From Brachycybe producta (lineage: Eukaryota > Arthropoda > Diplopoda > Playtdesmida > Andrognathidae): a DNA stretch of 64,000 nt. Below the pieces are notes generated by a model. The model saw only the letters and a program-made list of their open reading frames with translations, was not told the origin of the DNA and searched no databases. The translations under genes were made by a program, and so were the position numbers. Below are positions 17,991-53,270 of the stretch, piece by piece. The stretch spans positions 350,001-414,000 of the forward strand of contig JAUPFP010000026.1 of NCBI GenBank assembly GCA_036925085.1, written 5' to 3'. Every line of letters begins with the position of its first letter. The stretch's first letter is position 1.

Positions 17991-18679
17991 GTATCGTGGA
18001 CTGATCGTTTCACAGTGACTTTGTGTTATAGTCATAATGCACTTTTATAATGTTAGGAGACACCCCAAAGGTTACGTTCTACTTTAGTGATGTCATAAAA
18101 ATATAAAGCTTTCAAAGTAAGCATGAATGAATGTTTAAACAAGTGTTAATGGCCACAAAAATTGACCTGACGAGCACAAAAATTGGCCTAAAATCAGGCC
18201 TGTATAACGGGAGGCTATAGCGTAAATTATAGCATGGCTTCCTATAGTGCAACCCTCCGTAATTGGTTTACTTCAATCGATTCTGTATCCCGATTTTAAT
18301 TTGTATATCCAGTTAAACGAATAAAAAAGTGGCTCGACATACTATCCACAATTTTATGGCATCTTAAAAGTATTATGTATGTACAGTGTAGATGATTTTG
18401 AGTTGATAAATAAAATTTAGAATAATATTGTATAGTTTTGTTTTGTTTATGTTTTGTGATGCGAATAATCTCTTGAACCATCCATGCAGTTGATCTTGTT
18501 GGGTCTCTTGCATGTGAATAATTTATTTCACTATAATTTATTGCCCCTTAATTTCAATATCAGTACTAATAATAAGAAATACATGCTAGAAAAATAAAAT
18601 ATAAAATTAATTATACAGTATTCTTAATTTAAAGAAAATTATTTAGTTGGTGTCAATTAATGGACTTTAATAACCTTAC
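17991..18679 (-). other. Flank and opsin intron sequence
   Basis: AT-rich, without coding signal. The part next to 18680 is intron on the minus strand, because the opsin exon ends with a consensus donor (AG/GTAAGG, 18674-18681). The next exon, which should encode the cytoplasmic tail, was not found in the window. Confidence 0.45.
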
Positions 18680-19683
18680 CTAATGCCATAGACAATCGGA
18701 TTATAAACAGCATTGGCCTTAGCAAAAACAGCTCCCCAGATCGTTAACAAAGGTGTTAGGTGTTTTCGGTCAGTAAACAGGCCTGTCCAAGCTATAATCA
18801 AATAAGGTGTCCAGGCAAAAAACCACAAGCTGACCGTCATCATGGCAATTTTTGCTAGCTTAATTTCAGCGGTGGTTTTCTGCAGATGGGCATTGGCTCT
18901 TATGCTTGCTACATTCATACGCTTTGCTTGCTCTCTTAACTGACATTCATGATCAGCAACCGCTTTCACGATAAAAAAATAATAGTATATCAGACTAAAA
19001 AGAGAAACGAAGTATACAGCCACGCCATATACTATTACGTAGCTGCTATTCCAAAGTTCTGTAGTCAAGTAATCAACTGTGCAACTTGTCATATTGCCCT
19101 CTGGCACATATCTACTCCATCCGAACATAGGAGCTATCGTCCATGCTAGTGACCACAACCAAACACAAAGGCAAATTCGTAAAGCTTTTTTGTGAGTTAG
19201 TGGACGAGCAGCAAAACCTTTAACAATGACGTTATATCTGTCGTAACCTATCATGACCATGCTCCAAATTGAGGCACAGCCAAAGAGAGAGCCCCACATA
19301 CCATATAGTTCGCACATAAATGGCCCCAGAATCCATGTCTCTGCAAAACAGTTTGTGGCCATTGTTGGCGTCATTGTCAACATCATCAGAAAGTCACTCA
19401 AAGCCAGATTCATAATTAAAATGTTAGAGGGACTTCGTAAAGTTTTTGTTGAACCAAACACGTATATGACAACACTGTTCCCAGCCATAGAAACGAGTCC
19501 TAATAGAACCATCACAATTCCAAGCACACTATGCCAAATTTGTTCTATGGGCGGATAACCATACCAGTGATCACTGATCATGAACAGCATGTCCAATGGG
19601 AGTTGCTGCACAATTGTACCATTAATAGATAAGAGAGGCATGGCTTTAGAATCATACGCGTAGCTATTACTTAAAACGAACAA
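18680..19683 (-). CDS. r-opsin (visual pigment), main exon
   Basis: Seven-transmembrane light receptor that couples to Gq in rhabdomeric photoreceptors (family knowledge). Seen in the sequence: an N-glycosylation-type NGT before TM1, NHT-like spacing through GNSVVIYVF (TM1), [16 protein letters not shown] (TM2), the TM3 end DRYNVIVKG, the counterion-region EGNMTSC, the arthropod loop [25 protein letters not shown] (TM6) and [15 protein letters not shown] with the retinal-binding lysine (TM7). The exon stops at a clean splice donor after NPIVYGI, so the tail lies on another exon. Upstream there is an ATG at 19639-19641; the open frame extends further to 19683 without an ATG, so a spliced upstream exon is possible. 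The wording matches the arthropod long/middle-wavelength class. No stops or frameshifts, and it is the only intact host gene part here. Confidence 0.9.
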
Positions 19684-27165: not shown

Positions 27166-29149
27166 AGAAGCTGAAAAACAATACTGGTAGAAGGGGAGAA
27201 ACTATAGAAGAAATGTTTCCGAATCAAATCATCTGGGTGACTCAAAAAACTATGAAGGTTTACGGGAATAGTTTGGAGGAAGCACAAAGAATAGTAACAG
27301 CCATGGAAACAGGATTTCATCAAGACAGAATTGAGGATACGGTCCAACATAATTCTGCCGATTCCAACAACAGGGCTAAGTCTAATGCCGTCAAATCCGA
27401 GAAAACTATCGTAAATGCAGCTAAGAGGGCGAGAGATGATACCAGCATGACTCCTGCAAACAACGAGATGATTGAATCTGTTTGAAGTGAGGAATTTATT
27501 GAGAAGTAGAGTGTGTTGCAACAAGTGTCGAAAACATTTAGGACAACGTCCTCACCTCATGTGAACTCATCGAGGTTGGAGATACCAGACCTGATGAAAG
27601 CATGGCCAAGATAACCATTTGGGTTAATGACACACCTGTACGATTTTTGGCGGATAGTGGGACTGGATACACTATCTTGTCATGCACAATGGCACAAGAG
27701 TACAGATTCCATTACGAATCCATTCTATCACATCTTGTAATCGGTGCAGTTGGAGGGGTACCAATTAAAGTACTTAGTCAGATGTGGCCCAAGTTCGAAT
27801 TAAACAAAAAGCGAGTAACTGAAAAGATGCTCATCATCGAAGGACAGCGAGAAGCACTGCTGGGACGAGACCTAGGAGCTGCATTTGATTTGATCGTTTC
27901 CATGAAGACCTCCAAGATTTACTTTGCTAACAAGATATTCTATGAAAGAACAAGCGATTTGATGAAGAAAGGAAGTGCTCGGACTAGTCTTCCCTGGAAT
28001 TTCTTCAGACATACAGGAGGGAAGCCATACGGAAAGCTCATACGCCATCAGAACCAATGAGGAGAGCTGTGTCAGAGCTCAAGGCAGGATCACGTTGAAT
28101 CCTGGCGAAGTGTTAAGTGTCTGCAGGGCGAATCATCGAGGAAAACAAAGTACTGATGATTAAAACGAACGATAGTCTCTTTAATTGAAAAGGTGTCGTT
28201 GTGGCCAGCAGTGTGCTACAAGGGGTTGGAAAATCACAACTAGAAGTTCAACTCCTGAATACCACACTGGAGTCCATGGGGATTGGAAACTGCAAGACTA
28301 TTGGACACTGCAAACTTCTGGACGAAACAGAAGAACAGCCAGCCTGCAAAGTTTCCGAGGAGGAAGACTTTAGAGACATCAGTGAAGCACCCGTTGATTT
28401 TCGCATTCTCTTCTAAGGACCTGGAAGCAACGAATTTAACGAAACACAAGATTGAAACTGGAGATAATCCACCAGGTCGAGATACATTACAAAGATGCAG
28501 ACCTTGAAAACACATCGTAATTGATGAGACGCTAGAAGAAATGAAGAAATCTGGGGTTGTAAGGCCATCGAAGTCACCATATGCATTGCCCATCATCCTT
28601 GTAAAGAAAAAGGATGGTTCATATTGTTTCTGCGTTGATTATCAGAAATTGAATGCGATAACAAAGGCAGACACTTATCCATTGCCCCGAATTTATGATG
28701 CACTAGACTCCATGAGAGAAGCTTGCTACTTCGCGACATTGGACATGAAGAGTGGATCTGGCAATTTGAGAAGGAAGACAGCGACATCGAGAAAACTGCT
28801 TTTACATCTCATCGAGGATTGTTCGAGTTCGTAAGAATGCCTTTTGGACTCCAAAATGCTCCTGCCACTATGCAACGTGCATTTGATATAATACTTGCAG
28901 GGCACAAATGGGAAACATGCCTAGTCTACCTACATCGTAGTTTTTGGAAGAACGTTTGAATAATTTATGGAAAGATTGAGAACAAACTTGGACTTGCTAT
29001 GGACAGCAAACCTAAAGTTGCATCCAACGAAATGCTTCTTTGGTTTTCAAGAAGAAGTATTTAGAACACCTGATCTCACCTGACGGAATTCGGCCAGATC
29101 CAGATAAGGTTGTCACCATAAAGAACTTCCCAGTTCCTGACAACATAAC
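27166..29149 (+). pseudogene. pol: E5 protease and RT remnant
   Basis: The pre-protease segment 27213-27485 is Lys/Asn-rich. The protease at 27602-28060 has FLADSGTGYTILS with the catalytic DSG, and EALLGRDLGAAFDLI as C-terminal box. The linker (about 28070-28420) is frameshifted. The RT at 28541-29149 has KKKDGSYCFCVDYQKLN, FEFVRMPFGLQNAPATMQ and WETCLVYL, then the frame breaks at the position of the catalytic DD. The last recognisable part is PDGIRPDPDKVVTIKNFPVP (about 29075-29135). The 5' LTR of E6 starts at 29150 inside this RT. Confidence 0.75.
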
Positions 29150-29613
29150 TGTTACCTGTAGAATTCAGGTAACAAAATCTCACACTTTTTATTTTTTATT
29201 TTTGTGTAGACATATAATACATAAACCAGTTCCTCCTCTTTCCCCCCCTTTTTTGTTTTTACCCAAACAAACACACAAAAGAAAAAACCGCCACTTGAAA
29301 GAAATAGGCCTATCCAAAACCTTACTGTAGGCTAAACATAAAGTTTTAAAAGCAAAAATGCTCCCCTCTCAAAAAACTTTTAAAGAAACAAAATTCTCCC
29401 CTATTTAAACTTAAAAAATCCCATTTATTACCCCTCCTTAAAATTCATTCTGCTTCTTAACTTCATTATATAACCCCTGTTGACTTTTATCCCCCTTCCT
29501 CTTCTCTTGAAAATACCCAGACATGAGAACTGTCTGGAGAATGAGGAAACAAACAAAATTCCCCCCTCACAGCCCTAGGCCATCTAGCAACCCAAACAAA
29601 CAAGACCAAAACA
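29150..29613 (+). repeat. 5' LTR of E6
   Basis: Starts TGTTACC and ends AAAACA. The first 24 bases form a perfect hairpin, GTTACCTG-TAGAATT-CAGGTAAC. TTATATAACC near 29470 is a plausible TATA box. The sequence is C-rich and purine-poor, with CCCCTC runs on the plus strand. It is inserted in the E5 RT. Confidence 0.9.
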
Positions 29614-29623
29614 ACCAACAAAA

Positions 29624-29641
29624 TGGCGCAGTCGACAGGAT
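29624..29641 (+). other. Primer binding site of E6 (tRNA-Ser)
   Basis: TGGCGCAGTCGACAGGAT starts ten bases after the LTR. TGGCGCAGTCG is the complement of the usual 3' acceptor end of animal tRNA-Ser (CGACTGCGCCA), the primer also used by Drosophila 17.6/297-type elements. Confidence 0.75.
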
Positions 29642-29710: not shown

Positions 29711-30172
29711 ATGAATGATCCCTATCTAATTCCATGTCCTTTTAAGAAAAATCATTGTCTTATAAAAGCCACCAAGTACAACAGTCATTATATGAGATGC
29801 CAGTATAGCCCCCGAAATTTACCAACGGTCTGCCCCAGCTCCTCACCTTCTCAAAATTGGGTAAGCCAGCCTGTATTTAACCTTCCACCACCTATAGAAG
29901 ATTGGGATAAAGAAATTCAAGAACAATTTGGGGTAGTTCAGGTTGTAGAACCCTATATTGATGAACTCAGTCTAAAAGCCATTACTTGTTCTGAAAACTG
30001 GGAGGATGAAACCTACACTGAGGAAGATATCCGAAAACTAGAAGAAGAGGCCCGAGCAGCTCCCAAGTACAGAAGATTTGTAAATTCCAATGAACTGAGT
30101 TACATGACAAAAACCCAAAAAAGAGAATATATTGCAAGAATTAGTAATAGACCAGTAAGACCAACTCAATAA
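29711..30172 (+). CDS. GTSF1/Asterix-like small protein (CHHC finger)
   Basis: The 153-residue ORF lies between primer site and gag, a place where gypsy elements normally have no gene. It opens with a CHHC zinc finger: C9, H15, H26, C30 (CPFKKNH...HYMRC), the spacing of the U11-48K/TRM13/GTSF1 finger family with one extra residue between the histidines. Residues 57-72, NLPPPIEDWDKEIQEQ, follow; vertebrate GTSF1 has PP-EDWDKDL-EQ at the same place after its fingers, and tryptophans of that tail bind Piwi proteins (family knowledge). A second acidic Trp motif, NWEDETYTEEDI, lies at about 96-107. GTSF1 has two fingers; here the second is reduced to C41 or lost. The ORF is intact, ATG to TAA, and 32 bases ahead of gag. 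I infer a captured host gene that may engage Piwi. Confidence 0.75.
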   Translation: MNDPYLIPCPFKKNHCLIKATKYNSHYMRCQYSPRNLPTVCPSSSPSQNWVSQPVFNLPPPIEDWDKEIQEQFGVVQVVEPYIDELSLKAITCSENWEDETYTEEDIRKLEEEARAAPKYRRFVNSNELSYMTKTQKREYIARISNRPVRPTQ

Positions 30173-30204: not shown

Positions 30205-30840
30205 ATGGCTCAGGCTCAGCCAAACGCTCATCTAAATTTCACCTCTCTAATTCCGAGCTTTTCGGGAGATGAAAAAGGTCCTACTGCGGAAGATTTTTTT
30301 CATCATCTAGAGGATGTTGCCCATCTGGCAGAATGGAATGAGGCATTCCAAATAATTATTTTCAGGTCCAAGTGTCGAGGTTTGGCAGATGATTTTCTAA
30401 GAGACCATCCAGAAGTAAAAGAAATAACCTCACTATCGGATTTAAGATCTCTTATTAAACAAAGATTTCAGCCAACAGAGCCAAGGCAAATAACCCTACA
30501 GAAATTTTTTGAAGCTAAACAGGGACATGGTGAAACAGCCATAGAATTTATTTCCAAAGTACGCACATTTGGTAGGGCAGTAATTGAAGGAACTCCTACC
30601 AGAGATCAAATTGTTACTAGAGATAGTATGATACAGGCCCAAATCATAAAAGGGTTGTTACCTAAAGTCCGGAGATTTGTCCTGTCTAGAAACCCTAGAA
30701 ATCTTGATGAAACCATACAAATAGTGTTGGCAGAGGAAGAAAATGATAAACTTACCCAGACAAAATATGGAGTAAACACAATTGAGGTAGAGAAAGATAA
30801 AGAAATAGAAGACCTCAAAACAAGAATAAAAGGACTATAA
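30205..30840 (+). CDS. gag: E6 Gag capsid part
   Basis: 211 residues from MAQAQPNAHLNF. The retrotransposon-Gag core is visible: FSGDEKGPTAEDFFHHLEDV at the start, WNEAFQIIIFRSKCRGLADDFL, LRSLIKQRFQPTEP and FFEAKQGHGETAIEFISKVR, then a charged helix VEVEKDKEIEDLKTRIKG-like end (residues 195-211). It should continue into the nucleocapsid, since the next ORF is in the same frame, but a TAA at 30838-30840 intervenes. Two copies of the 11-base unit GACTATAAGAA (30833-30843 and 30844-30854) stand exactly there. Confidence 0.85.
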   Translation: MAQAQPNAHLNFTSLIPSFSGDEKGPTAEDFFHHLEDVAHLAEWNEAFQIIIFRSKCRGLADDFLRDHPEVKEITSLSDLRSLIKQRFQPTEPRQITLQKFFEAKQGHGETAIEFISKVRTFGRAVIEGTPTRDQIVTRDSMIQAQIIKGLLPKVRRFVLSRNPRNLDETIQIVLAEEENDKLTQTKYGVNTIEVEKDKEIEDLKTRIKGL

Positions 30841-31604: not shown

Positions 31605-33655
31605 ATGCAATTAAACATTTGGGTCTTAAATACGATCCAACAAATGATTGCATTTTCTACAAAGGAAAGGAGATACAAATTTATAGGAAAGGAGAAGCCA
31701 TAAAAATCTTAAATTCTGTTCAAACACGGCCAAGAAACCTACAATGGGTTGCTGATGTTTTAAATAAAACAGAAGAGAGGCATCACGATAAATTGCAACT
31801 CCTCCTAACTAGCTATTCAGACATTTTTGCATGCAGTCTAAAAGATCTACAACCAACAAGCAGGGTAACACAGGAAATCCATTTGACAGATCTAGCTCCT
31901 GTTTACATTAGGCCGTACAAGGTACCTCAAAAACAGGAGGCAATTTTGCAGGAGAAAATAGATGAGTTGCTTGAGGCCAACATTATAAAGCCCTCAGTGA
32001 GCCCTTACAGTGCTCCTTGCATGTTGGTAGGAAAACCTGATGGAAGTCACAGCTTAGTGGTTGACTTTCGAGCCTTGAATAAAAAGGTAATTGGGGATAA
32101 ATATCCTCTACCTGAACTCATCAGTGTTAGCAACCAATTAGGCAAAGCTACATACTTTTCTACTCTAGATCTAGCCAGTGGATTTCACCAAATCCCAGTA
32201 GAGAAAAATGACCAACATAAGTTAGGGTTCAGTACAACTTCAGGTCATTATGAGTTTGTTAGATCACCAATGGGGTTGAAAACATCCCCAAATGTGTATC
32301 AAAGGCTAATGGATGATGTTCTGAAAGATTTCAAGGGAAAAATCTGCTTTGTATATATGGATGACATAATAATTTACAGCAACACCATTGAGGAACACTT
32401 TGACAGACTTAGACAGATATTTCAAAGACTAAGGGAAGCAAATTTGAAGGCAAAACCCTCAAAGTGTATTTTTCTAAAAACAGAAATAAATTACTTGGGA
32501 CACACATTTAAACAGGGATTCATGAAACCAGGCCCAAACAAGATAGAAGCTATAGAAAAATTTCCCAGGCCCCACAATGTGAAGAAAATACAAAGTTTTC
32601 TTGGTCTGGTAAATTTTTACAGGAGATTCATTCCTGATTGTGCCAAGGTAGCAGCACCTCTAACAAGGTTGCTGGGAAAAGATGTTCTCTTTCATTGGAC
32701 TAATGAATGTGAGCAAAGCTTTCGTATCCTTAAAGAAAGTTTAACTTCCTCTCCTGTTCTGGTAATGCCTGATTTCAATCAGCCATTTTATCTAACAACA
32801 GATGCCAGTAACTTTGCAATTGGTGCCATTTTGGAGCAAAAAGTAAATGGATGCTTACATCCAATTTCATATGCTAGCAGAAAACTGAACCCAGCTGAAC
32901 AAAATTATTCAACCACCTGGAAAGAAGCACTAGCCTGTGTATATGGTGTGAATTATTTTAGGTACTACTTAATGGGTAGACCATTTACCTTAATAACAGA
33001 CCATAAACCCTTACAGTATCTTATGACCATGAAGAAGGATAAGGCTATGTTAACTAGATGGGCCCTTCAGTTACAACAATACAACTTTGAAATTAAATAC
33101 AGAGAAGGAAAAAACAATGGAAATGCTGATGCCCTCAGCCGAAACCCTCCAGAAGAAGTAAATGTGCTACAACAAAACATTTCAATATGGGAAGAAAAAG
33201 ACATAGTAGCTGACCAAAACAAATGCTCAGAATTAAAACCTTTCATAGACTACCTTTCAGGATACCCTTCCACCCCACAGGTTCAAAAGGAAGTACAAAA
33301 AGCAAGACTGTCAATCAATGAAGATGGTTGGTTGATTAAGACAGATGAATCCACAGCCAAATTAGTGGTACCCAAACAAAAAAGGGCTCATGTCTTGGCA
33401 ATGTGCCATGATGCAGCATTTTCTGGACATCTGGGTATTGAAAAAACTCAGAACAGGGTTGAGAAGAAATTTTTTTGGAAAACTCTTAAACCAGATGTCC
33501 GAAAATACTGTGAATCGTGTGAATCTTGCCAGGAAAAGAAAAAACCAGTGGGAAAGGTGTCTCTAATTAAATTTCCTCCTCCATCAAAACCATTTGAAAG
33601 GCTAGGACTTGACATTTTAGGGCCATTACCTACATCCAACAAAGGTAATACATAG
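31605..33655 (+). CDS. pol: E6 Pol: RT, RNase H, integrase N-terminus
   Basis: About 680 residues. RT: KPDGSHSLVVDFRALN, FSTLDLASGFHQIPV, FVRSPMGLKTSPNVYQRLM, and an intact catalytic box VYMDDIIIYS at about residue 244. Connection: NYLGHTFKQG and FLGLVNFYRRFIPD. RNase H: PFYLTTDASNFAIGAILEQ, YSTTWKEALACVYGV and LITDHKPLQYL, with LTRWALQLQQYNFEIKYREG and NADALSR closing the domain. Integrase zinc module: HDAAFSGHLGIEKTQ and CESCESCQEKK (HHCC complete), then GLDILGPLP holding the first aspartate. The frame closes at 33653-33655 while the integrase core continues one frame over. Confidence 0.9.
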
Positions 33656-35238
33656 CTGTAATCTGTGATTACCTCTCAAAATATCCTGAGGCATTTGCCA
33701 TCCCAGACCAGAAAGCTGAAACCATAGCAGCACTTTTGGTGAAGGAAATCTTTTCAAGGTATGGTTGTTGTAGGGAACTCATAACAGATAGAGGAGCCAA
33801 TTTCACTTCAGAATTAATTCTGAATATGTGCCGATTGCTAGGTATTAAGAAAATATTTACCTCAGCATACCATCCACAAACTGATGGTCTAGTCGAGCGT
33901 TTCAATGGAACGCTAATGACAATGCTCTCCCACTTTGTCGAAAACGATCAAAGGAATTGGGATGATGAATTGCCTTTAGTGTTAATGGCTTATCGAAGTG
34001 CTACACATTCTAGCACTAAAGAAACACCCTACTATCTCCTGTTTGGACAAGATATGAGTTTACCTTACGACATCCTAACCAGCAAACCAGCACCAATTTA
34101 CAACATAGAAGACTATGGCAAAGTTCTCACACGAAGATTACAGTCTGCATATCAAACAGCTAGAGAGGCCTTAGAAGTTGCTGCTGAGAAGCAACTAAAA
34201 TATCAATCAAAGGGAAGGAAAATGAAAGAATTTCAACCTGGGGACAAGGTTTATTTATATGTTCCCCATGTTCCAGTAGGAAAAACAAAAAAATTGGCAA
34301 AATTGTGTAGAGGTCCATATAGAATTTTGGAACAGACATCTCCAGTCAACTATAAAGTTCAACACAAATATCATAATAGGGACATCCAAATTGTGCATGT
34401 TGAGCGGTTAAAGCTAGCAAAAGAAAACAGACCCTGGGATCTCCAGGAAACACCAGATGATGATTCAAAAGGCAAATCAATTGAAAAGGGTGTACCAAAA
34501 GACCAAAGTTCTGATGAAGAATCAAATGAAAATTTTGATGACTCTGGGAGCCCAAAACTACCAGGAATTACACGTACTGAAAAACGGAAACATACCGGGG
34601 AACCATCCCACAAATATGGTCTAAGAAGCAAAGGTCCTGAAAATCTTTTACCTCCCCTAGTCCCAAGAAAACGCACAAGGCGTAGTACACAAACCACTCA
34701 AAATGAAAGTGTGACGGAATCAGAGGGGGAAGTTTCAATAGAACAGAGAATAGGAAATGAAGAAGCACTGCCCGAAATTAATCTAGAAGGATTAAGAGAA
34801 GCACTAAGGATAGCAATGGATGAAAACTCACAACGAGTTAGCCCCAAAATGGGAAATCAACCAGGACAAACTAGCACAAGGTTAGTAGAAGCTGATATCG
34901 ATGGTCCAAATACTAGCACAATGCTAGAAAAAGACAAAGAACCTTGTAGCACAGAAATGGAAACAGAGCCGAACAAGGACATAGCTACTAAAACAGGGTT
35001 AACAGATAGTGAGACTGAGACATCCAATTCAAGTACAATACCTGATAATAGGAACTCAGTAGGTACCTCAGAAATTCTTCCAGTAGCAGGAACAAGCAAT
35101 GATGTAAATGTAGAAACTGAAGCGAGTACTTCAAAAGAAGATGAAGGAAATGTAGCAGATCGTTGGTTAGATGCCCTGGCAAAAGCTTTAAACTCCCTGA
35201 TAAAAAGGTCTATTGGAAGAAATCCAAATAGATGTTAG
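33652..35238 (+). CDS. pol: E6 integrase core, GPY/F module and long tail
   Basis: Continuation of Pol after the frameshift near 33650. It has VICDYLSKYPEAFAI, TDRGANFTSELI with the second catalytic aspartate, AYHPQTDGLVERFNGTLM with the glutamate, PYYLLFGQDMSLPYDI, and CRGPYRILEQTSPVNYKVQ (GPY/F module). After HVERLKLAKENRPW comes an unusual acidic Ser/Glu/Thr-rich tail of about 270 residues with a KYGLRSKG motif. The first in-frame ATG is at 33736. The stop overlaps the envelope start by seven bases (35232-35238). Confidence 0.85.
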   Translation: MAVICDYLSKYPEAFAIPDQKAETIAALLVKEIFSRYGCCRELITDRGANFTSELILNMCRLLGIKKIFTSAYHPQTDGLVERFNGTLMTMLSHFVENDQRNWDDELPLVLMAYRSATHSSTKETPYYLLFGQDMSLPYDILTSKPAPIYNIEDYGKVLTRRLQSAYQTAREALEVAAEKQLKYQSKGRKMKEFQPGDKVYLYVPHVPVGKTKKLAKLCRGPYRILEQTSPVNYKVQHKYHNRDIQIVHVERLKLAKENRPWDLQETPDDDSKGKSIEKGVPKDQSSDEESNENFDDSGSPKLPGITRTEKRKHTGEPSHKYGLRSKGPENLLPPLVPRKRTRRSTQTTQNESVTESEGEVSIEQRIGNEEALPEINLEGLREALRIAMDENSQRVSPKMGNQPGQTSTRLVEADIDGPNTSTMLEKDKEPCSTEMETEPNKDIATKTGLTDSETETSNSSTIPDNRNSVGTSEILPVAGTSNDVNVETEASTSKEDEGNVADRWLDALAKALNSLIKRSIGRNPNRC

Positions 35239-37928
35239 AGGCAGGATGTCTAATGAAACTTTTTTACAGCCTCCTAATACTTGGGGTATGCAGTCAAGAA
35301 GAGAAGAAAGATACCTATGAAGTGGAAATATGTAAATGGGGTAACACTGGAAGATCATGTCGAGTGGTGACATCCACTGAAAAACCAAAGTATGCACAAA
35401 ACATCTGTCATGGGGGTTATTGTTATAAGTGCATAATTAAATGGACCACAAGGGTCATAACGTCAAAAAATGAAACTCTTAATGCATCATCTTTTATCAT
35501 TGAACAAAGTGAAGAGGTGGGAGGAAATGATGATCTATTTAAATGCCTAAATAGAGGACTGCCATGTTCTTGTAAAAATACATCCTGTTCTGGAACAAAC
35601 CAGTATTGCATGATATCAAATAAATGCAATGGTGAGTTACAAGATTGCCACTGTGAGGTGGTAAAGGCCAAAACCCAATTCACACATATTGATGTGAATG
35701 GAAATGAACGAACGAATTTTGAAATAGCATCCTTCAAAGAATGTTTTTTCAATATCTCGAATCATGAAGTCAGTATGGCAACCCAACGAAAATTGTTAGG
35801 TACTGATTCTATTAGTACCTCTATGGGTGATCATTTTATAAAGTTTAGTGATCCTGTGGTTACAGTCAGTACCAAAGGCACACTAATACTAAGAAAAGAT
35901 GGCATTGAACAAATCTGCCAAATAAAGGATGATAAACAAGTTATCATTCCTAGTGAATTTAGTATGGATTCGGGAATGCTCCACATTTTATTTGTGACTT
36001 CTGATGGAAAAACATTGGAAGGCACGTTTACAATTGACGGAAATAGCATCTGTCACCGAATAAAGTGTATATTTTGTTTAACATTTATATATAATCTGTC
36101 TTGCATGCCTACATATTTATCTTATGGCATTATTATACTATTGATATTGTTAACAAGTATGTCTATTTTATATGTTAGAGTAGCCATAAAAAGTGTCATT
36201 GATATTATCAAAATTATATTTAAAGTGTATTTTTCGTTTTATTTTGCTGTTAAAAAATGCTTAAAATTAAGTATGATCTTAGGAGTAGCAAGTGGAAATG
36301 CTATTCGAAGACGAGCCATCCAAACAAAAAACAGAATTGAAAATCTAAGACTGCTTGAAGAAGGTATACCAAACCCAATAAACCCAAATTTCATGTATAT
36401 TGTTCTTTTTATTGGAGTTCTTCTTAGTTTATGCTCAGGTGCACAACTCAAGTGTACTGAACATAAACTTATTAAATCACAAAATTTAGAGTGCCAAGAT
36501 ACACCAACTGGGAGGAAATGCTTTATATCCACCCAAGCTCAAATCACCCTCACCAATTTAGAATACACATCGTGTTTGTGGTTACTAGATAACCAAGAAG
36601 AAAATTTGGGCAGTCTGGAAATAACCTTCAATTCTGTAAATTGTGAATGGATGACTCAAAGAATGTACTACACTTTTCCCACCAAACTATACACCATAAA
36701 TCAGGTTGCTTGTCCCCAAAATGCTTACTGTGGCTGGGGCGATCACTGTCATAAAGACTATAAATTTGAAGCATTAACAAAAGAAGCTTTAGATTGGCCT
36801 GGGATAACAGACTGTTTTGGGGGAGATTCAGGAAGCATGTGCCCAATAATGTTGGACCAACCATGCCACCACTTTAGATGGTATCTAAAACCTGATTATT
36901 TATATACCTATGAAGTCAAAAGAATAGTTTCAATGTCATGTGCTCCCACAGTCAAAGTAGTACTCAAATTAAATGGTACAGAAGAAACATTTTTTGTTAA
37001 AAAATCCAGAACCCTACCTAGGGATATATCCATTGAAATACTTGGCACATTTGACCAAGCCACAGACATTATATCTAGGCATCTATTGATCAGACAGAAT
37101 AGACCACTAGAAGCCTATCTAGAAACTGCAGCAGAAATGCATAGGCCTTTAAGAGGACATATTGGGGATGTCCAGGCGGCGCATCCTACTGCCAGTTCAT
37201 TTACATTTGACCACATGATGGTTCAATGTAAATCTTATGAAAGGAGATTAACTTGCGATAAACAACCCTCTTATTTAGAACAGTTTATAAAAGAAAGACC
37301 AACATTGCTCCCTTTGACTGTATCCAACCATAGGATGTTAGTAACAGATGGAAGACTATATTCCACTCAATTAACATCCAGTCCAGCCACTGTCCATCTT
37401 GACATAAAAGATATGGAAATAAAATTGCATACCACAAAGATATGTCCAAAATTTGAAAAAGTACTTTCTCATACTGGATGCTATTCATGTATTATGCTGG
37501 CTACTATATATATAGAAGCCCATAGTACATGTTTACCAGGAGAGGTTCAAGTTACCTTTGAAAACAGCTTAATGACCACTAGGGCAATAAATTTAAAAAC
37601 CACCCCAGAAAAACATATGATCCAGTTAAAACTTGATACCAAATGTATTCATGATAAAATATGTTTAACTTCAAGAGTAGGGTCATCTTGTGAAGTTTTT
37701 CAGGGTTGTTTTGAAGACCCTCCTTTACAACTTGATCAATATAACTTATCTTCTTCCTCATCAATAGCAGGCTATGCCCCAGGGATTCCATTTAGTATGT
37801 CTAGTGTAATGCATGACATTTTTGGCTCTTTAGGAACCTCCCTCTACACATCTGTTGTAATAATTCTGTCTTTAATATTGGTCATATACATGTTCTCATG
37901 TGTATTGAGTATTATAAGGGCCAAGTAA
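35232..37928 (+). CDS. env: E6 envelope polyprotein, Gn/Gc-like
   Basis: 898 residues, uninterrupted. A hydrophobic leader (MKLFYSLLILGVCS, residues 8-21) is followed by a Cys-rich first ectodomain with several N-x-S/T sites. A membrane pair follows at about 297-345 (YGIIILLILLTSMSILYV, then a second hydrophobic stretch), then a second internal leader at about 386-403 (YIVLFIGVLLSLCSGA). The second Cys-rich ectodomain has CGWGDHC near residue 498 and HTGCYSCIMLATIYI near 746. The terminal anchor is SVVIILSLILVIYMFSCV (about 873-890) with a short basic end. This tandem Gn-Gc layout and the GCYSC box resemble bunyavirus (phenuivirus-type) glycoproteins, with class II fusion Gc, not the F-type env of Drosophila gypsy. 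Assignment is by architecture; the fusion loop is not certain. Confidence 0.75.
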   Translation: MLEAGCLMKLFYSLLILGVCSQEEKKDTYEVEICKWGNTGRSCRVVTSTEKPKYAQNICHGGYCYKCIIKWTTRVITSKNETLNASSFIIEQSEEVGGNDDLFKCLNRGLPCSCKNTSCSGTNQYCMISNKCNGELQDCHCEVVKAKTQFTHIDVNGNERTNFEIASFKECFFNISNHEVSMATQRKLLGTDSISTSMGDHFIKFSDPVVTVSTKGTLILRKDGIEQICQIKDDKQVIIPSEFSMDSGMLHILFVTSDGKTLEGTFTIDGNSICHRIKCIFCLTFIYNLSCMPTYLSYGIIILLILLTSMSILYVRVAIKSVIDIIKIIFKVYFSFYFAVKKCLKLSMILGVASGNAIRRRAIQTKNRIENLRLLEEGIPNPINPNFMYIVLFIGVLLSLCSGAQLKCTEHKLIKSQNLECQDTPTGRKCFISTQAQITLTNLEYTSCLWLLDNQEENLGSLEITFNSVNCEWMTQRMYYTFPTKLYTINQVACPQNAYCGWGDHCHKDYKFEALTKEALDWPGITDCFGGDSGSMCPIMLDQPCHHFRWYLKPDYLYTYEVKRIVSMSCAPTVKVVLKLNGTEETFFVKKSRTLPRDISIEILGTFDQATDIISRHLLIRQNRPLEAYLETAAEMHRPLRGHIGDVQAAHPTASSFTFDHMMVQCKSYERRLTCDKQPSYLEQFIKERPTLLPLTVSNHRMLVTDGRLYSTQLTSSPATVHLDIKDMEIKLHTTKICPKFEKVLSHTGCYSCIMLATIYIEAHSTCLPGEVQVTFENSLMTTRAINLKTTPEKHMIQLKLDTKCIHDKICLTSRVGSSCEVFQGCFEDPPLQLDQYNLSSSSSIAGYAPGIPFSMSSVMHDIFGSLGTSLYTSVVIILSLILVIYMFSCVLSIIRAK

Positions 37929-38000: not shown

Positions 38001-38162
38001 CCAACATACCTTGAAAAAACTTTTAAAAATTGTTACTTGTTTATGTGTGAGAAATCACAAAAAGTGTAAAGTCGGCATCCAGTTCAGCAACCAAAAAAGT
38101 GAAAGTGTAGAAGTGTGTGAATTTGAAGTGTGCATTAATCAAACAAAACAAATTCTGTGGAA

Positions 38163-38828
38163 ATGGCATCCTTTGAACAGCAGTTGTGTGCTCCGGATAG
38201 ACTAACCAAGGGAATACACACTAAGTTCATGAGAGAACTATTGAAAAAAAAGAGGGAAGCTAGAGGTGAAACAACAATAGAACTCAAAAAAATAATAATG
38301 AGTTCTAAAACCACTCAAATGATTGAAAGGGCCTCTAGACAAATAAATAAACTAAAGGCCAAGAACCAAGAAACTACCAAAACATCAACAAGGGCTCCAA
38401 CATCCACACCAACCTCAACAAAATTATCAACAACTACAACATCATCATCAACACATGGTCTGCAAAAGGAAATTCTTCAGGAAAAGGATGAAATCATTTT
38501 CCTGGAAACTGTGCAAGGTGCTAAAAGAAAACTGGAGGAACAAGGAACCTCCACAATGAAAAAAAGAAAAAATGAGCCTACAAGCAAAAGGATAAACTCA
38601 ACCAAGAATTCACCAAAGCCATCCACCACAACTAAACCATCAACAAGGGTGAGAAAAGAAACTCTTGACTTAAATGTAGAGGACATTTTGAAAGAAATTC
38701 CACTGGTCCCAGCCCTGCTGAGCCCCATACAAGGAAACAACAAAGAAGACAACAAAAAGAAAACAAGGTCTCAAAAAAGAAATATGAGACATAAGAAATG
38801 TCGCCAATTGTTTAAAACTTTATTTTGA
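38163..38828 (+). CDS. E6 basic Lys/Thr-rich last ORF
   Basis: About 221 residues from the ATG at 38163 (the open frame starts slightly earlier). The N-terminal 75 residues are charged and helix-rich (KFMRELLKKKREARGE, MIERASRQINKLKAKNQE). A Thr/Ser/Pro-rich spacer follows, then a second charged helix EILQEKDEIIFLETVQGAKR, two nuclear-localisation-like clusters (KRKLEEQ, MKKRKNEP), a short acidic/hydrophobic motif LDLNVEDILKEIPLVPALL, and a very basic end (KKKTRSQKRNMRHKKCRQL). No known family recognised. A position after env with its own CCAAT/TATA recalls retroviral regulatory proteins of the Rev/Tax/Bel kind, but only by position and composition. Confidence 0.6.
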   Translation: MASFEQQLCAPDRLTKGIHTKFMRELLKKKREARGETTIELKKIIMSSKTTQMIERASRQINKLKAKNQETTKTSTRAPTSTPTSTKLSTTTTSSSTHGLQKEILQEKDEIIFLETVQGAKRKLEEQGTSTMKKRKNEPTSKRINSTKNSPKPSTTTKPSTRVRKETLDLNVEDILKEIPLVPALLSPIQGNNKEDNKKKTRSQKRNMRHKKCRQLFKTLF

Positions 38829-38893: not shown

Positions 38894-39357
38894 TGTTACC
38901 TGTAGAATTCAGGTAACAAAATCTCACACTTTTTATTTTTTATTTTTGTGTAGACATATAATACATAAACCAGTTCCTCCTCTTTCCCCCCCTTTTTTGT
39001 TTTTACCCAAACAAACACACAAAAGAAAAAACCGCCACTTGAAAGAAATAGGCCTATCCAAAACCTTACTGTAGGCTAAACATAAAGTTTTAAAAGCAAA
39101 AATGCTCCCCTCTCAAAAAATTTTTAAAGAAACAAAATTCTCCCCTATTTAAACTTAAAAAATCCCATTTATTACCCCTCCTTAAAATTCATTCTGCTTC
39201 TTAACTTCATTATATAACCCCTGTTGACTTTTATCCCCCTTCCTCTTCTCTTGAAAATACCCAGACATGAGAACTGTCTGGAGAATGAGGAAACAAACAA
39301 AATTCCCCCCTCACAGCCCTAGGCCATCTAGCAACCCAAACAAACAAGACCAAAACA
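38894..39357 (+). repeat. 3' LTR of E6
   Basis: The same 464 bases as 29150-29613 with a single substitution seen by eye (run near 39121). Starts TGTTACC and ends AAAACA. The sequence after it (GCCAAGTTCAC) does not match the five or so bases before the 5' LTR (ATAAC), so no target-site duplication is visible. Confidence 0.9.
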
Positions 39358-39654
39358 GCCAAGTTCACACAAAAAACCCAGACAGGAAGTAAAAAATAAA
39401 AAATAATTTTTTGTATGTGTATGATGAAGAAACATGTAGAATCTATGCCCCAACATAGATCTTGCATGGTTCTTTATGTATTTTAATATGTATGTGTCTA
39501 CAAATTATGTAAATTAACCATTAACCAATGGGAAGCCTCCAGTGCAAGCCTATGAAGGCCATTTCCTATAAAATGGCCAAAAGTTGGCTCAGAAAATTAT
39601 TAGGACTTTGGCTTTTCAGCCATCTACACTGGAAGGAGACACATATCTGAGCAC
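39358..39654 (+). promoter_or_regulatory. Promoter-like segment right of E6
   Basis: AACCAATGGGAAGCCTCC (39516) followed by CCTATAAAATGGCC (about 39568) is a CCAAT/TATA pair like that at 37933-38000. It may be part of another LTR of the same branch. No coding signal. Confidence 0.35.
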
Positions 39655-39667
39655 TGGTTTCCAAATC

Positions 39668-39960
39668 ACTGGAGTACTGTGGTTCAGACTGTGTCTAATC
39701 AAAATATTGCTTAACTACCTTGAGAAAGGATAGCTAAACTGATTTTTTGCAGTCTACAATTGGGGTACTATGGTGCTAAAAGTTTCCTTTCCTTTGGAGT
39801 ACTGTTAGGCCTAAAAGTTTCCATTTGGAGTACTATAGAAACTATTGGTTTCCATTTATTTGGAGTACTGTAGTGACTATTGGTTTCCATACTTTGGAGT
39901 ACTGTAGGACTTATTGGTTTCCAAGTTAGGAGTACTGTAGCTCCAAGGGTTCCCAGTGAG
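39668..39960 (+). repeat. Tandem repeat, 31-35 bp unit
   Basis: Units carrying GGAGTACTGTAG and ATTGGTTTCCA start at 39671, 39762, 39796, 39827, 39862, 39896 and 39929, so spacing is 31-35 bases after an initial gap of 91. The units keep TTTGGAGTACTGTAG and TTGGTTTCC best. It lies downstream of a TATA-type box, so it could be the transcribed leader of an LTR. Confidence 0.65.
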
Positions 39961-40435
39961 GAACTATAAAGAAAAATCAGTTTGGCTAGTGTGGAGGATT
40001 CTACATCATCATGGATTTCTATATGTGGATTACATTTTATATGTAAGTGTTATATGTATTTTCTTTTACTATTATTTTTATTTTTTATTGACAATATTTA
40101 GCTTTTTATACTTTTATTTCATTTTAATGGTCATATTACTCATAGCCTTATTTTTCATTTTCTACACATTTTTTCAAATATTATAAACATGTAATTTCTC
40201 AAACCCAATTTTTAAGTTAATCTTATTGTAATATCAATTTTTGTTTAATTGATTAACCCTATGAAAAAATTCCTAAAATAATCCTTTTATAATATTTTGG
40301 TAAAGGTCATGTTAATCCCCATTTATATGTTTATATGAATTAAAATAAAATATTCTTTAACTTAAATAAAATTTGAGTCAATTTGATTTATTTTTTATGG
40401 GCCTTCATTGACCCCGAACCTTAAGTCAAAATTAA
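39961..40435. other. AT-rich, no gene seen
   Basis: Long T and A runs, no coding signal; it leads into the accessory-ORF remnant at 40436. Confidence 0.4.
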
Positions 40436-40717
40436 CTTCAGTTGGTTATTTTCAACAATAAAGCTATACAGCCGGGAAACAACCAACATAACCGCCAATG
40501 GCAGAGAATCCTGAGCCTTATCGGACATGCCGTTAGACAGCCCACTCTCCATGATGATTGACCTTATGTATTGTTCGACGATGCCAGCAGCGATGCAGAG
40601 GATTGCCAAATTAGACAGTACTATAAAGAAACTTCTGGGGCTGTCACACAACTAGAAGCTGGTCTGTTCACCAGTCCCGAGAGCCCAACCCTGGGATGGG
40701 CCCCCGCCAGTTATTAA
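40436..40717 (+). pseudogene. Accessory-ORF C-terminus (E7 remnant)
   Basis: This plus-strand frame has one internal TGA at 40559. It reads RQWQRILSLIGHAV, then LFDDASSDAEDCQIRQYY, then LEAGLFTSPESPTLGWAPAS before the stop at 40715. The E9 ORF has LQWSNQCSIHITGRPV, LFDEATSYAEGRRSYRQ and LEGALRRSPESPAHGWAEAE with the stop at the same place. A shared 3' UTR follows (TTGATAGGCTTTCGCCTATT here, TTGATAGGCTTCCGCATATT in E9). It is therefore the end of a diverged relative of E9. Confidence 0.75.
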
Positions 40718-51228: not shown

Positions 51229-53270
51229 ATGAAGACTGCAGCATGTCTGGAAGGAAGACTTGGTCGCTGGCAGCTCTTAATGCAGGAGTACGACTACAAA
51301 ATCGTCTACAAGGAGAGGAAACTCCATATCGAAGCTGATTGCCTGTCAAGATATCCAGGAGGAGTACCTGTTAACTGGAAGGCAATTCCGGAAGCCGAGG
51401 ACTTAGATGACAGCGTAATCTTCAGTGTGACCTTACAATGGGATTGGAGAGAAGAGCAAAAGTTGGACCAAGAAATTATGAAGATTCGTGAAGAGCTAAG
51501 AACACAGCCAGAGTCACCACTTCATAAGTTGTTCTGCGATTACGACAACATTTTGTTCGCCTGTGTGTTCCACGGAAGTTCCGTGCCCACATTCGTGAAC
51601 GTGGTACCAAAGCACCTTATCCCTGAAGTAATCAGATTATGCCATGATGATCTGGATGCTGGTCATGAAGGACAAACCAAGACCTGGGATCGAACCAGGC
51701 AGAGATTTTATTGGAATAACATGCAGCACGACATTTTCGAATATGTCCGATCATGTGAGATTTGTCAGCTACACAAGTTGGGCACTGAGAAACCAGAAGG
51801 GTTCCTTCAAGAAATGCCTATTGGACAACCTTGTGAATGCTGGGGAATGGACTTTATTGGACCATTAGTACCATCGGTTGGAGGAAGCAAGCACATCTTG
51901 TTGGCAGTCGATTACGCCACTCGATACTGCGTTGCTAAAGCTGTTCAAAGCACAACCGCACTAGTCGTCGTCAAATTCCTAGAAAAAGATGTAAGAGCGA
52001 TTTTTGGGAGACCCAAGAAATTGATTTCGGATCGAGGAACACCATTTGTTGCTAAGAATACTCAAGAATTCTTGGAAGAAAACGAGATAGAGCATGAAAC
52101 AACAACAGCGTACCATCCTCAAAGTAATGGTCTCGCCGAAAGAACGAATAAAAGCATTATTCGGACTATGAAGAAGTATCTGACTCCTGCGAAGAACCAA
52201 ACCGATTGGGCAACGAAACTGGATGAAGTTTTGGAATCATACAACTCATCTGAACATTCATCCACGAAGTTTACGCCGTATACTCATGTTTGGAAGGGAG
52301 CCTAGAACCAAAGTTGACACCTTAGTTCCAGAACGACCAGTTATTGTGGATAACGAGGCAGGAAACCTCGTGGACGTTCGACAACAGGCGGAAGAACGCC
52401 AAGAAGCGGAACTAAGTACAGCCAGAGCGAACCTGAAAGCAGCACATGATCGTCGAAAGAAGTACTACGACCAAAGAGCACAAGAAGCCTTATGAGTACA
52501 AAATTGGACAAAAAGTACTTGTACGAGACATGCGAATCAGGCCTGGACAGAGCAAGAAGTTCTTAACGAAATGGAGACAGGGATATACGATTGTCTAGAA
52601 GGTATCGGACACCGTATACCGATTGAGCTACGAGAATCAAGCTGGAAGATTAGTGGAAGACTCTGTAAATGTTGCAAATCTGAGACCACTATATGAGACT
52701 TACCAACCGGACGACCCCAATGTTCCAACGCCTGGAGACACCCTGGAGTCCATGGGTAACTCATCACCAGAAGAATCCGAATCGGAACCTGTAAAAGAAA
52801 AAGATATGACAGCATTTGTCAAGAAAAAGAACCTACCTTCATGTAAGAAGAGATGTTGTGGACACTGCAGATGCCAAAATGCTTGGATAGAATCCTCTGA
52901 GGATGAAGAAGAAATTGAGATAATTACAAAAGCAATCCAAACGCATTCTGACCGTAACGTCGAAATTAGAAGAAAAATGGCAGCAGACGATAACCAGCAG
53001 CAATTCTCATACTTAGCTGGCGAAGATGCGATGAAATTCACCAGAGAATATGGTAACAAGCCGAATTTTACCATGGAGACCATTGGATTCATTGAAGAAA
53101 TTCCTGAAGAAACAATGGAAATCAACGAAAAAGACGCAAATTTGCCGATGGAATTTCAAATGAAGCTGAAAAACGCAGAAGTTATCGATGGAACAACAAA
53201 AATGGACGATAATTTCGATGCTAGTGACACCACAGGAAGAAATGACGTCAAAAACGAGGAAGTAAACTGA
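51229..53270 (+). pseudogene. pol: E9 RNase H end, integrase and tail
   Basis: The reading begins inside RNase H (GRLGRWQLLMQEYDYKIVYK, ADCLSRYPGG). The integrase zinc module follows with HDDLDAGHEGQTKT and CEICQLH (one cysteine of CxxC kept, the second replaced by neighbouring residues), then the core with AVDYATRYCVAKAVQ, SDRGTPFVAKNTQEF and YHPQSNGLAERTNKS (D, D and E present). The frame shifts at about 52290 (LMFGREPRTKVD) and again near 52490 (IGQKVLVRDMRIRPGQSKKF), with a stop in between. The last open part, 52623-53270, has VNVANLRPLYE, a Cys cluster KKRCCGHCRCQNAW and an acidic Glu/Asp-rich end. The RT and everything upstream are missing. Confidence 0.85.

Follow-up and report, generated by a model that had tools for sequence, protein, structure and literature searches.

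A 64,000-nucleotide window of the genome of the millipede Brachycybe producta (contig JAUPFP010000026.1, positions 350,001 to 414,000; all positions below are counted within this window) contains an env-bearing retroelement that encodes a small GTSF1-like protein, designated P0001, upstream of gag. The gene is an uninterrupted reading frame of 153 codons that ends with TAA and occupies 29711–30172 on the plus strand. It begins 69 nt after a primer-binding-site-like sequence, TGGCGCAGTCGACAGGAT (29624–29641, +), located behind the 5′ long terminal repeat (LTR). The stop codon is separated from the gag ATG by 32 nt. The initial annotation had described an intact open reading frame (ORF) between primer site and gag, with a CHHC finger, an acidic tryptophan-containing tail and a second tryptophan motif, and this description holds in full.

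P0001 contains a single zinc finger, two acidic Trp motifs, and a C-terminal block. The finger has the pattern CP-x4-H-x10-H-x3-C (C9, H15, H26, and C30; 29735–29800, +) and is nearest to finger 1 of GTSF1. The tail of the protein reads NLPPPIEDWDKEIQEQ. The first acidic Trp motif, PVFNLPPPIEDWDKEIQEQ (29870–29926, +), aligns with the W98–W112 region of mouse GTSF1. The second, CSENWEDETYTE (29987–30022, +), is built around CSENWEDE and its tryptophan, W97, is found in all five families of the gene described below. The conserved C-terminal block, KYRRFVNSNELSYMTKTQKREYIARISNRP (30065–30154, +), has no relative that could be found, and a 46-residue piece of it gave no match in the PDB.

The carrier element is flanked by a target-site duplication of four bases, TAAC, at 29146–29149 and 40489–40492. 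Its 3′ LTR (38894–40488, +) is of full length, about 1.6 kb. The 5′ LTR (29150–29620, +) measures 471 bp after an internal loss of about 1.1 kb, as judged against the 3′ LTR and the copies L001 and L003. A repeat finder initially returned a repeat of 300 nt, and the full extent of the LTR was set by comparison with other copies. The N-terminal part of gag spans 30205–30840 (+) and ends at a stop at 30840. Pfam matches place reverse transcriptase, RNase H and the integrase zinc domain of pol at 31619–33655 (+), followed by the C-terminal part of integrase with a long extension (33736–35238, +; Pfam and frames), where pol is interrupted. Both gag and pol are thus interrupted in the window copy; in some other copies pol is open over long stretches. 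The env gene (35232–37928, +) encodes a class II fusion domain of the Phlebovirus G2 type (PF07245, E = 3.8e-27), which bears out the env-bearing nature of the element proposed at first. LTRs, target duplication, primer site, gag, the order of reverse transcriptase, RNase H and integrase, and env together identify an env-bearing element of the Ty3/gypsy type. The baculovirus F-type env family is not among the two Pfam families listed, and by this criterion the element is not an errantivirus of the Drosophila type.

A primer-site-like sequence precedes the ORF in all eight leaders examined. It is of two types, one resembling TGGCGCAGTCGACAGGAT in families A and B and the other, TGGCGTCGTGAACAGGAT, in families A2, C, and D. 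By reading of the leaders, both types overlap an ATG that opens a tiny upstream frame.

The ORF is not confined to the window. A six-frame search of the same genome (295 Mb in 442 contigs) yielded at least 42 matching places, a lower bound. Around these, 28 loci were read, including the window copy as L002. gag lies downstream of the ORF in 25 of them (the exceptions are L010, L016, and L026), and nine carry a full-length frame from ATG to stop (L001, L002, L003, L009, L013, L014, L018, L022, and L024). The sequences fall into five families, A, A2, B, C, and D, and intact members of the other families share 38–76% identity with P0001. All four zinc-ligand positions are occupied by ligands in 19 of the 28 loci; the second acidic motif keeps its Trp in 27. 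Sister copies, the gag context and the selection described next rule out a chance frame, the alternative that the initial annotation had set against its own proposal. No relatives of P0001 were found among predicted proteins or in the viral contigs searched.

The ratio of nonsynonymous to synonymous change (dN/dS), also suggested at the outset as a check, was calculated from codon alignments of seven intact ORFs. It lies between 0.11 and 0.33 for the family pairs where it is computable: 0.11 for A–A2, 0.16–0.18 for C–D, 0.25 for A–B, and 0.31–0.33 for B–C. The ORF is under purifying selection between families. Nonsynonymous change is nevertheless about 2.5 to 2.8 times faster in the ORF than in gag over the six between-family comparisons that could be made for the two genes, for example 0.161 versus 0.062 for A–A2, 0.570 versus 0.218 for A–C2, 0.612 versus 0.216 for A–D1, and 0.290 versus 0.118 for C2–D1. 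The low dN/dS together with the faster rate than gag therefore defines a conserved but fast-evolving protein gene.

A gag tree places the ORF-bearing elements together. A gag match was present at 41 loci; the tree includes the 32 that align over 150 residues or more and omits the other 9. The 18 ORF-bearing loci, from all five families, lie on one side of a branch with support of 100/99; opposite them are 8 loci that have several small pre-gag ORFs and 6 without a group label. The labels were assigned by us, and for the ORF-bearing group to be a clade the root must fall outside it.

These data bear on the age of the gene. The two LTRs differ at one position over the 464 shared bases compared, and the window insertion is young. 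The capture of the gene is old, as every one of the five families in the gag group carries it. The recent capture proposed initially is thus not supported. The host's own GTSF1 gene is located at C24:568397–568823, and its coding parts are split by non-coding stretches. In its tail, as exons were assigned by our own reading, a single Trp lies in a SENWE context like that of the second motif of P0001. P0001 scores no higher against host GTSF1 than against mouse GTSF1 (53 versus 61 for the finger, 36 versus 60 for the tail), and the longest word common to the ORF and the host coding exons is 9 nt in sense and at most 8 nt in antisense orientation. The donor was therefore either ancient or another host.

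Similarity to GTSF1 was detected by several comparisons. A phmmer search of 177635 distinct PDB sequences with P0001 retrieves nothing at E ≤ 10 except mouse GTSF1 (6x46), with an E-value of 1.3e-5 and an independent E-value of 0.011 for the best single stretch; such values are generally modest for small zinc fingers. A profile of seven family members again retrieves GTSF1 alone (E = 6e-5). The summed Smith-Waterman score of P0001 exceeds all 500 shuffles (z = 11.7) against a small set of six GTSF1 sequences, two of which are fragments and one our own gene model; for each of the other six members, 0 or 1 of 500 shuffles scores as high. The similarity that the initial annotation had claimed is thus recovered by single-sequence search, family profile and shuffle tests.

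Both modules contribute to this similarity. The finger of P0001 alone reaches z = 9.2 against finger 1 of five GTSF1 proteins, compared with 5.8 against finger 2 and 3.7 against two other CHHC fingers. An hhalign comparison of the family profile with finger 1 gives a score of 40.1 (probability 89%), and the maximum in 600 column shuffles is 23.0. Finger 1 is the best finger set by z in four of the seven members, P0001, L009, L014, and L018. The tail of P0001 alone has z = 7.2 against four GTSF1 tails, with 0 of 1000 shuffles as high; for the other members' tails the number is at most 2 of 1000. Eight further accessory proteins served as controls against GTSF1, and seven of them had at least 20 of 500 shuffles as high. 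In the GTSF1 hidden Markov model (HMM) search, the family B member L013 alone is clear of shuffles (E = 5.5e-4).

The finger departs from that of GTSF1 in several respects. The GTSF1/Asterix pattern is CP-x4-H-x9-H-x3-C (PMC9539491), so that the spacing in P0001 is one residue longer (x10 versus x9). Families A and A2 have CP-x4-H-x10-H-x3-C. Families B, C, and D have CP-x4-C-x10-H-x3-C, in which a Cys replaces His15 and leaves a possible zinc site. P0001 possesses one finger, as first annotated, where GTSF1 has two CHHC fingers in tandem at its N terminus.

In mouse GTSF1, R26, R29, K36, and K39 of finger 1 are the residues reported to bind RNA (PMC9385479). P0001 has basic residues at three of these four positions, with K19, K22, and R29 corresponding to R26, R29, and K36; each of families A2, B, C, and D has basic residues at two of four. 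Finger 1 is described as the RNA-binding finger and binds transfer RNA (tRNA) (PMC9539491). The finger kept by P0001, like that of the family profile, therefore most resembles the RNA-binding finger, and the suggestion in the initial annotation that RNA binding had been given up is not upheld, either by this resemblance or by the basic positions that remain.

The tail carries the residues that would be relevant to Piwi. W98, W107, and W112 of mouse GTSF1 are needed for tight PIWI binding (PMC9385479). In the alignment of P0001 with 6x46, F56 and W65 correspond to W98 and W107. An alignment with fish GTSF1 agrees on both positions, and a gapped Smith-Waterman alignment with the mouse protein shifts F56. 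F56 is invariant across the seven members, and W65 lies in an EDWD motif in families A, A2, and B.

The explanation favored here is that the ORF would be an old host-derived accessory gene of env-bearing gypsy-type retroelements, probably taken from a GTSF1 transcript. It would have retained the acidic Trp tail and a single finger that resembles finger 1 most closely, would have lost finger 2, and would have gained a new C-terminal block. If expressed, the protein may bind Piwi, its Trp motifs occupying the site of GTSF1. The incomplete finger module and the foreign C terminus would then keep the element's own transcripts from being productively silenced. In flies, GTSF1 with mutated finger ligands is reported still to bind Piwi and enter the nucleus but to fail in restoring silencing (PMC9539491); a dominant-negative form consisting of the Trp tail without a full finger module is therefore reasonable. 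That P0001 is a GTSF1 mimic interfering with the Piwi pathway through its acidic Trp motifs is put forward tentatively, with chances judged a little short of even.

Several observations weigh against this explanation. In the tail, the position of mouse W112 is a glutamine (Q70) in P0001, and the EDWD motif is absent in families C and D. The Pfam profile zf-U11-48K (PF05253), which the initial annotation had named for verification, matches none of the seven members at E ≤ 10, a listing from which the Pfam filters drop most matches above about 0.1. An HMM built from four GTSF1 sequences gives P0001 an E-value of 0.24, and shuffles reach down to 0.1. phmmer with the host's own GTSF1 fails to separate P0001 from shuffles, and P0001 does not match 9nhb, another GTSF1 chain among the PDB sequences. 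By z, finger 2 scores higher than finger 1 for L013, and U11-48K together with the host's other CHHC finger scores higher for L022 and L024. One of the accessory-protein controls reached 3 of 500 shuffles against GTSF1. A structure model predicted from the single sequence is unusable (mean predicted local distance difference test score, pLDDT, 40.5). As for selection, synonymous sites are saturated in the other between-family pairs, so that dN/dS is not computable for them, and two within-family pairs are too close for a verdict: C1–C2 shows no synonymous change, and D1–D2 has a dN/dS of 1.63 on very few changes. The retained finger with its basic positions also counts on this side, as it fits an RNA-binding role.

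Such a role is the strongest rival. The finger may bind tRNA or the leader RNA of the element and serve in primer placement, packaging or Gag assembly. The likeness to the tRNA-binding finger 1 (PMC9539491) favors it, as do the three basic positions in P0001, the location of the ORF close behind the primer site in every leader examined, and the conservation of all ligand positions in 19 of 28 loci, with Cys for His15 compatible with zinc binding in families B–D. This reading leaves the acidic Trp motif, conserved in 27 of 28 loci, without an explanation. Families A2, B, C, and D are basic at only two of the four positions, and a sister family has a tail-like ORF devoid of a finger. An RNA-handling role for the protein is considered unlikely, at about half the standing that an even case would have.

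A second possibility is convergence, in which a small zinc protein of separate origin has come to resemble GTSF1, acidic Trp tail included. It would account for the missing Pfam match, the different spacing, the weak HMM search and a preference for finger 1 in only four of seven members. In addition, sister elements encode many other small CP-x4-C proteins that have no known relatives, and one of these proteins is the control at 3 of 500 shuffles. However, two separate modules match GTSF1 in the same order, each beyond shuffles, GTSF1 is the sole PDB match, and the other seven controls stay at 20 of 500 shuffles or more. Because finger 1 is not the best set in three of seven members, our estimate for descent was lowered slightly and that for convergence raised slightly. 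Convergence is still improbable, and P0001 very probably descends from GTSF1, as far as sequence comparison can tell. It appears by the same comparisons to be a divergent single-finger relative of GTSF1, not an orthologue. It is not classed as GTSF1 because its finger number and finger spacing differ and Pfam gives no match, and a two-finger GTSF1 orthologue is ruled out on the same three grounds.

The protein might also redirect Piwi instead of blocking it, either by gaining nuclear entry through Piwi or by tuning silencing to a tolerable copy number. The Trp motifs and the purifying selection on the ORF are as compatible with redirection as with interference, and the conserved C-terminal block could act as an effector. 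Redirection is nonetheless regarded as quite improbable. A conflict at the RNA level, in which the ORF yields Piwi-interacting RNAs (piRNAs) against the host GTSF1 messenger RNA on the precedent of TART-A and nxf2 (PMC7785250), has a negligible chance, as the longest shared word of 9 nt makes such targeting of this host's gene unlikely and selection acts on the protein.

Sister elements place the gene in a broader context. Up to five small pre-gag ORFs are present in sister families (L053, L056, L057, and L062). An ORF of L057 that contains a finger only (L057_874; 892–1230, with L-locus coordinates oriented so that reverse transcriptase is at the 3′ end; CPWNPEC..YQDHTLIC) resembles the finger of the CHHC families (0 of 1000 shuffles) and shows no match to GTSF1 itself (58 of 500). 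Conversely, an ORF of L056 (L056_2433; 2499–2777) has a DWD tail motif, SERDWDLQI, without a finger; its likeness to the tail of families B and D is reached by 3 of 1000 shuffles. A third ORF, L053_2256 (2274–2705), with TERDWDLQM and likewise without a finger, falls below significance in its resemblance to the tail (262 of 1000 shuffles). By our reading, the tail-like ORFs of L056 and L053 end in basic sequences like nuclear signals, KKRRVEN and KRKRSSK. The separate finger-like and tail-like ORFs look like the two halves of P0001 at the sequence level.

Other small proteins accompany them. The CP-x4-C proteins form two groups, one with CPYSxxCF..WxCxxH..FIxLGR and one with CP-x4-C...CxxH units, and no convincing Pfam match was obtained for the six that were scanned. 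A pre-gag protein of one sister family (L056, 1779–2249) is Bcl-2-like (PF00452, E = 1.9e-5, below the Pfam cut-off), and the same frame is present in copies L059 and L064. With chances judged slightly lower than those of interference by P0001 itself, the whole group of infectious-type retroelements may use a truncated GTSF1, occupying Piwi, as a protein counter to the piRNA defence; its module would have been rearranged in sisters to give ORFs with the tail or the finger alone, close to further captured genes that include a Bcl-2 relative.

Transposons of Arabidopsis reportedly possess sequence-specific anti-silencing systems, with the names VANA and VANDAL attached to them. They share with the role proposed here a transposon-encoded protein directed against silencing; the elements are from plants, the silencing is by DNA methylation, and no sequence relation is claimed. 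P0001 itself is like GTSF1/Asterix (UPF0224) in its CP-x4-H finger with H-x3-C, its basic finger helix and its acidic Trp tail, and unlike it in the single finger, the x10 spacing, the extra conserved C-terminal block and the retroelement carrier. In Drosophila, TART-A has captured a fragment of nxf2 that is proposed to target this piRNA-pathway gene (PMC7785250). Both cases involve a retroelement holding sequence of a piRNA-pathway gene, but piRNA-mediated repression is proposed for TART-A, whereas a selected protein without long shared words is found here.

Accessory genes are known from other LTR elements. The Burro elements of planarians are gypsy-like and bear accessory domains including Bcl-2 (PMC6431247), comparable to the Bcl-2-like ORF in the sister family. 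They differ in their giant polyprotein organization, and the passages on Burro contain no GTSF1-like protein. LTR elements of bdelloid rotifers have captured an ORF3 of esterase or exonuclease type (PMC5408684) and resemble the present elements in having family-specific extra ORFs; the terms zinc and GTSF are absent from the text of that report as available. Insect endogenous retroviruses of the ZAM and Beagle subclades have a short coding leader exon upstream of gag that is spliced to env (PMC12992720). The position 5′ of gag is similar, but env here has its own start. An env leader exon as in ZAM is ruled out by the ATG and signal-like start of env; moreover, of three splice-donor words searched for, not one occupies a position common to the leaders of all families. 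Among the matches listed in open-licence PubMed Central, a scope beyond which most subscription papers lie, none reports a retroelement-encoded GTSF1.

If the protein is indeed a GTSF1 mimic, it would open a direct molecular approach to the escape of retroelements from Piwi. To our knowledge, few if any protein antagonists of the piRNA pathway have been described from animal transposons, and the closest cases among the literature matches act at the RNA level, as in TART-A, or in plants. A mimic would also be relevant to the causes of selection on GTSF1 genes, which is documented for GTSF1 and GTSF1L in human populations (PMC12994711). If the role is tRNA handling, the retroelement would have turned the RNA-binding finger of a silencing factor to its own use.

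The window contains several additional features. An ORF of 223 residues and unknown function lies between env and the 3′ LTR (38157–38828, +); its product is rich in Thr, Ser, and Lys and belongs to no clear family in Pfam. A frame of 335 residues on the minus strand (18676–19683) encodes a G-protein-coupled receptor of the rhodopsin family (7tm_1, E = 5.8e-53) and is apparently a host gene. Pieces of other LTR elements are located at 51229–52305 and 27602–28060, corresponding to an integrase and an aspartyl protease, respectively.
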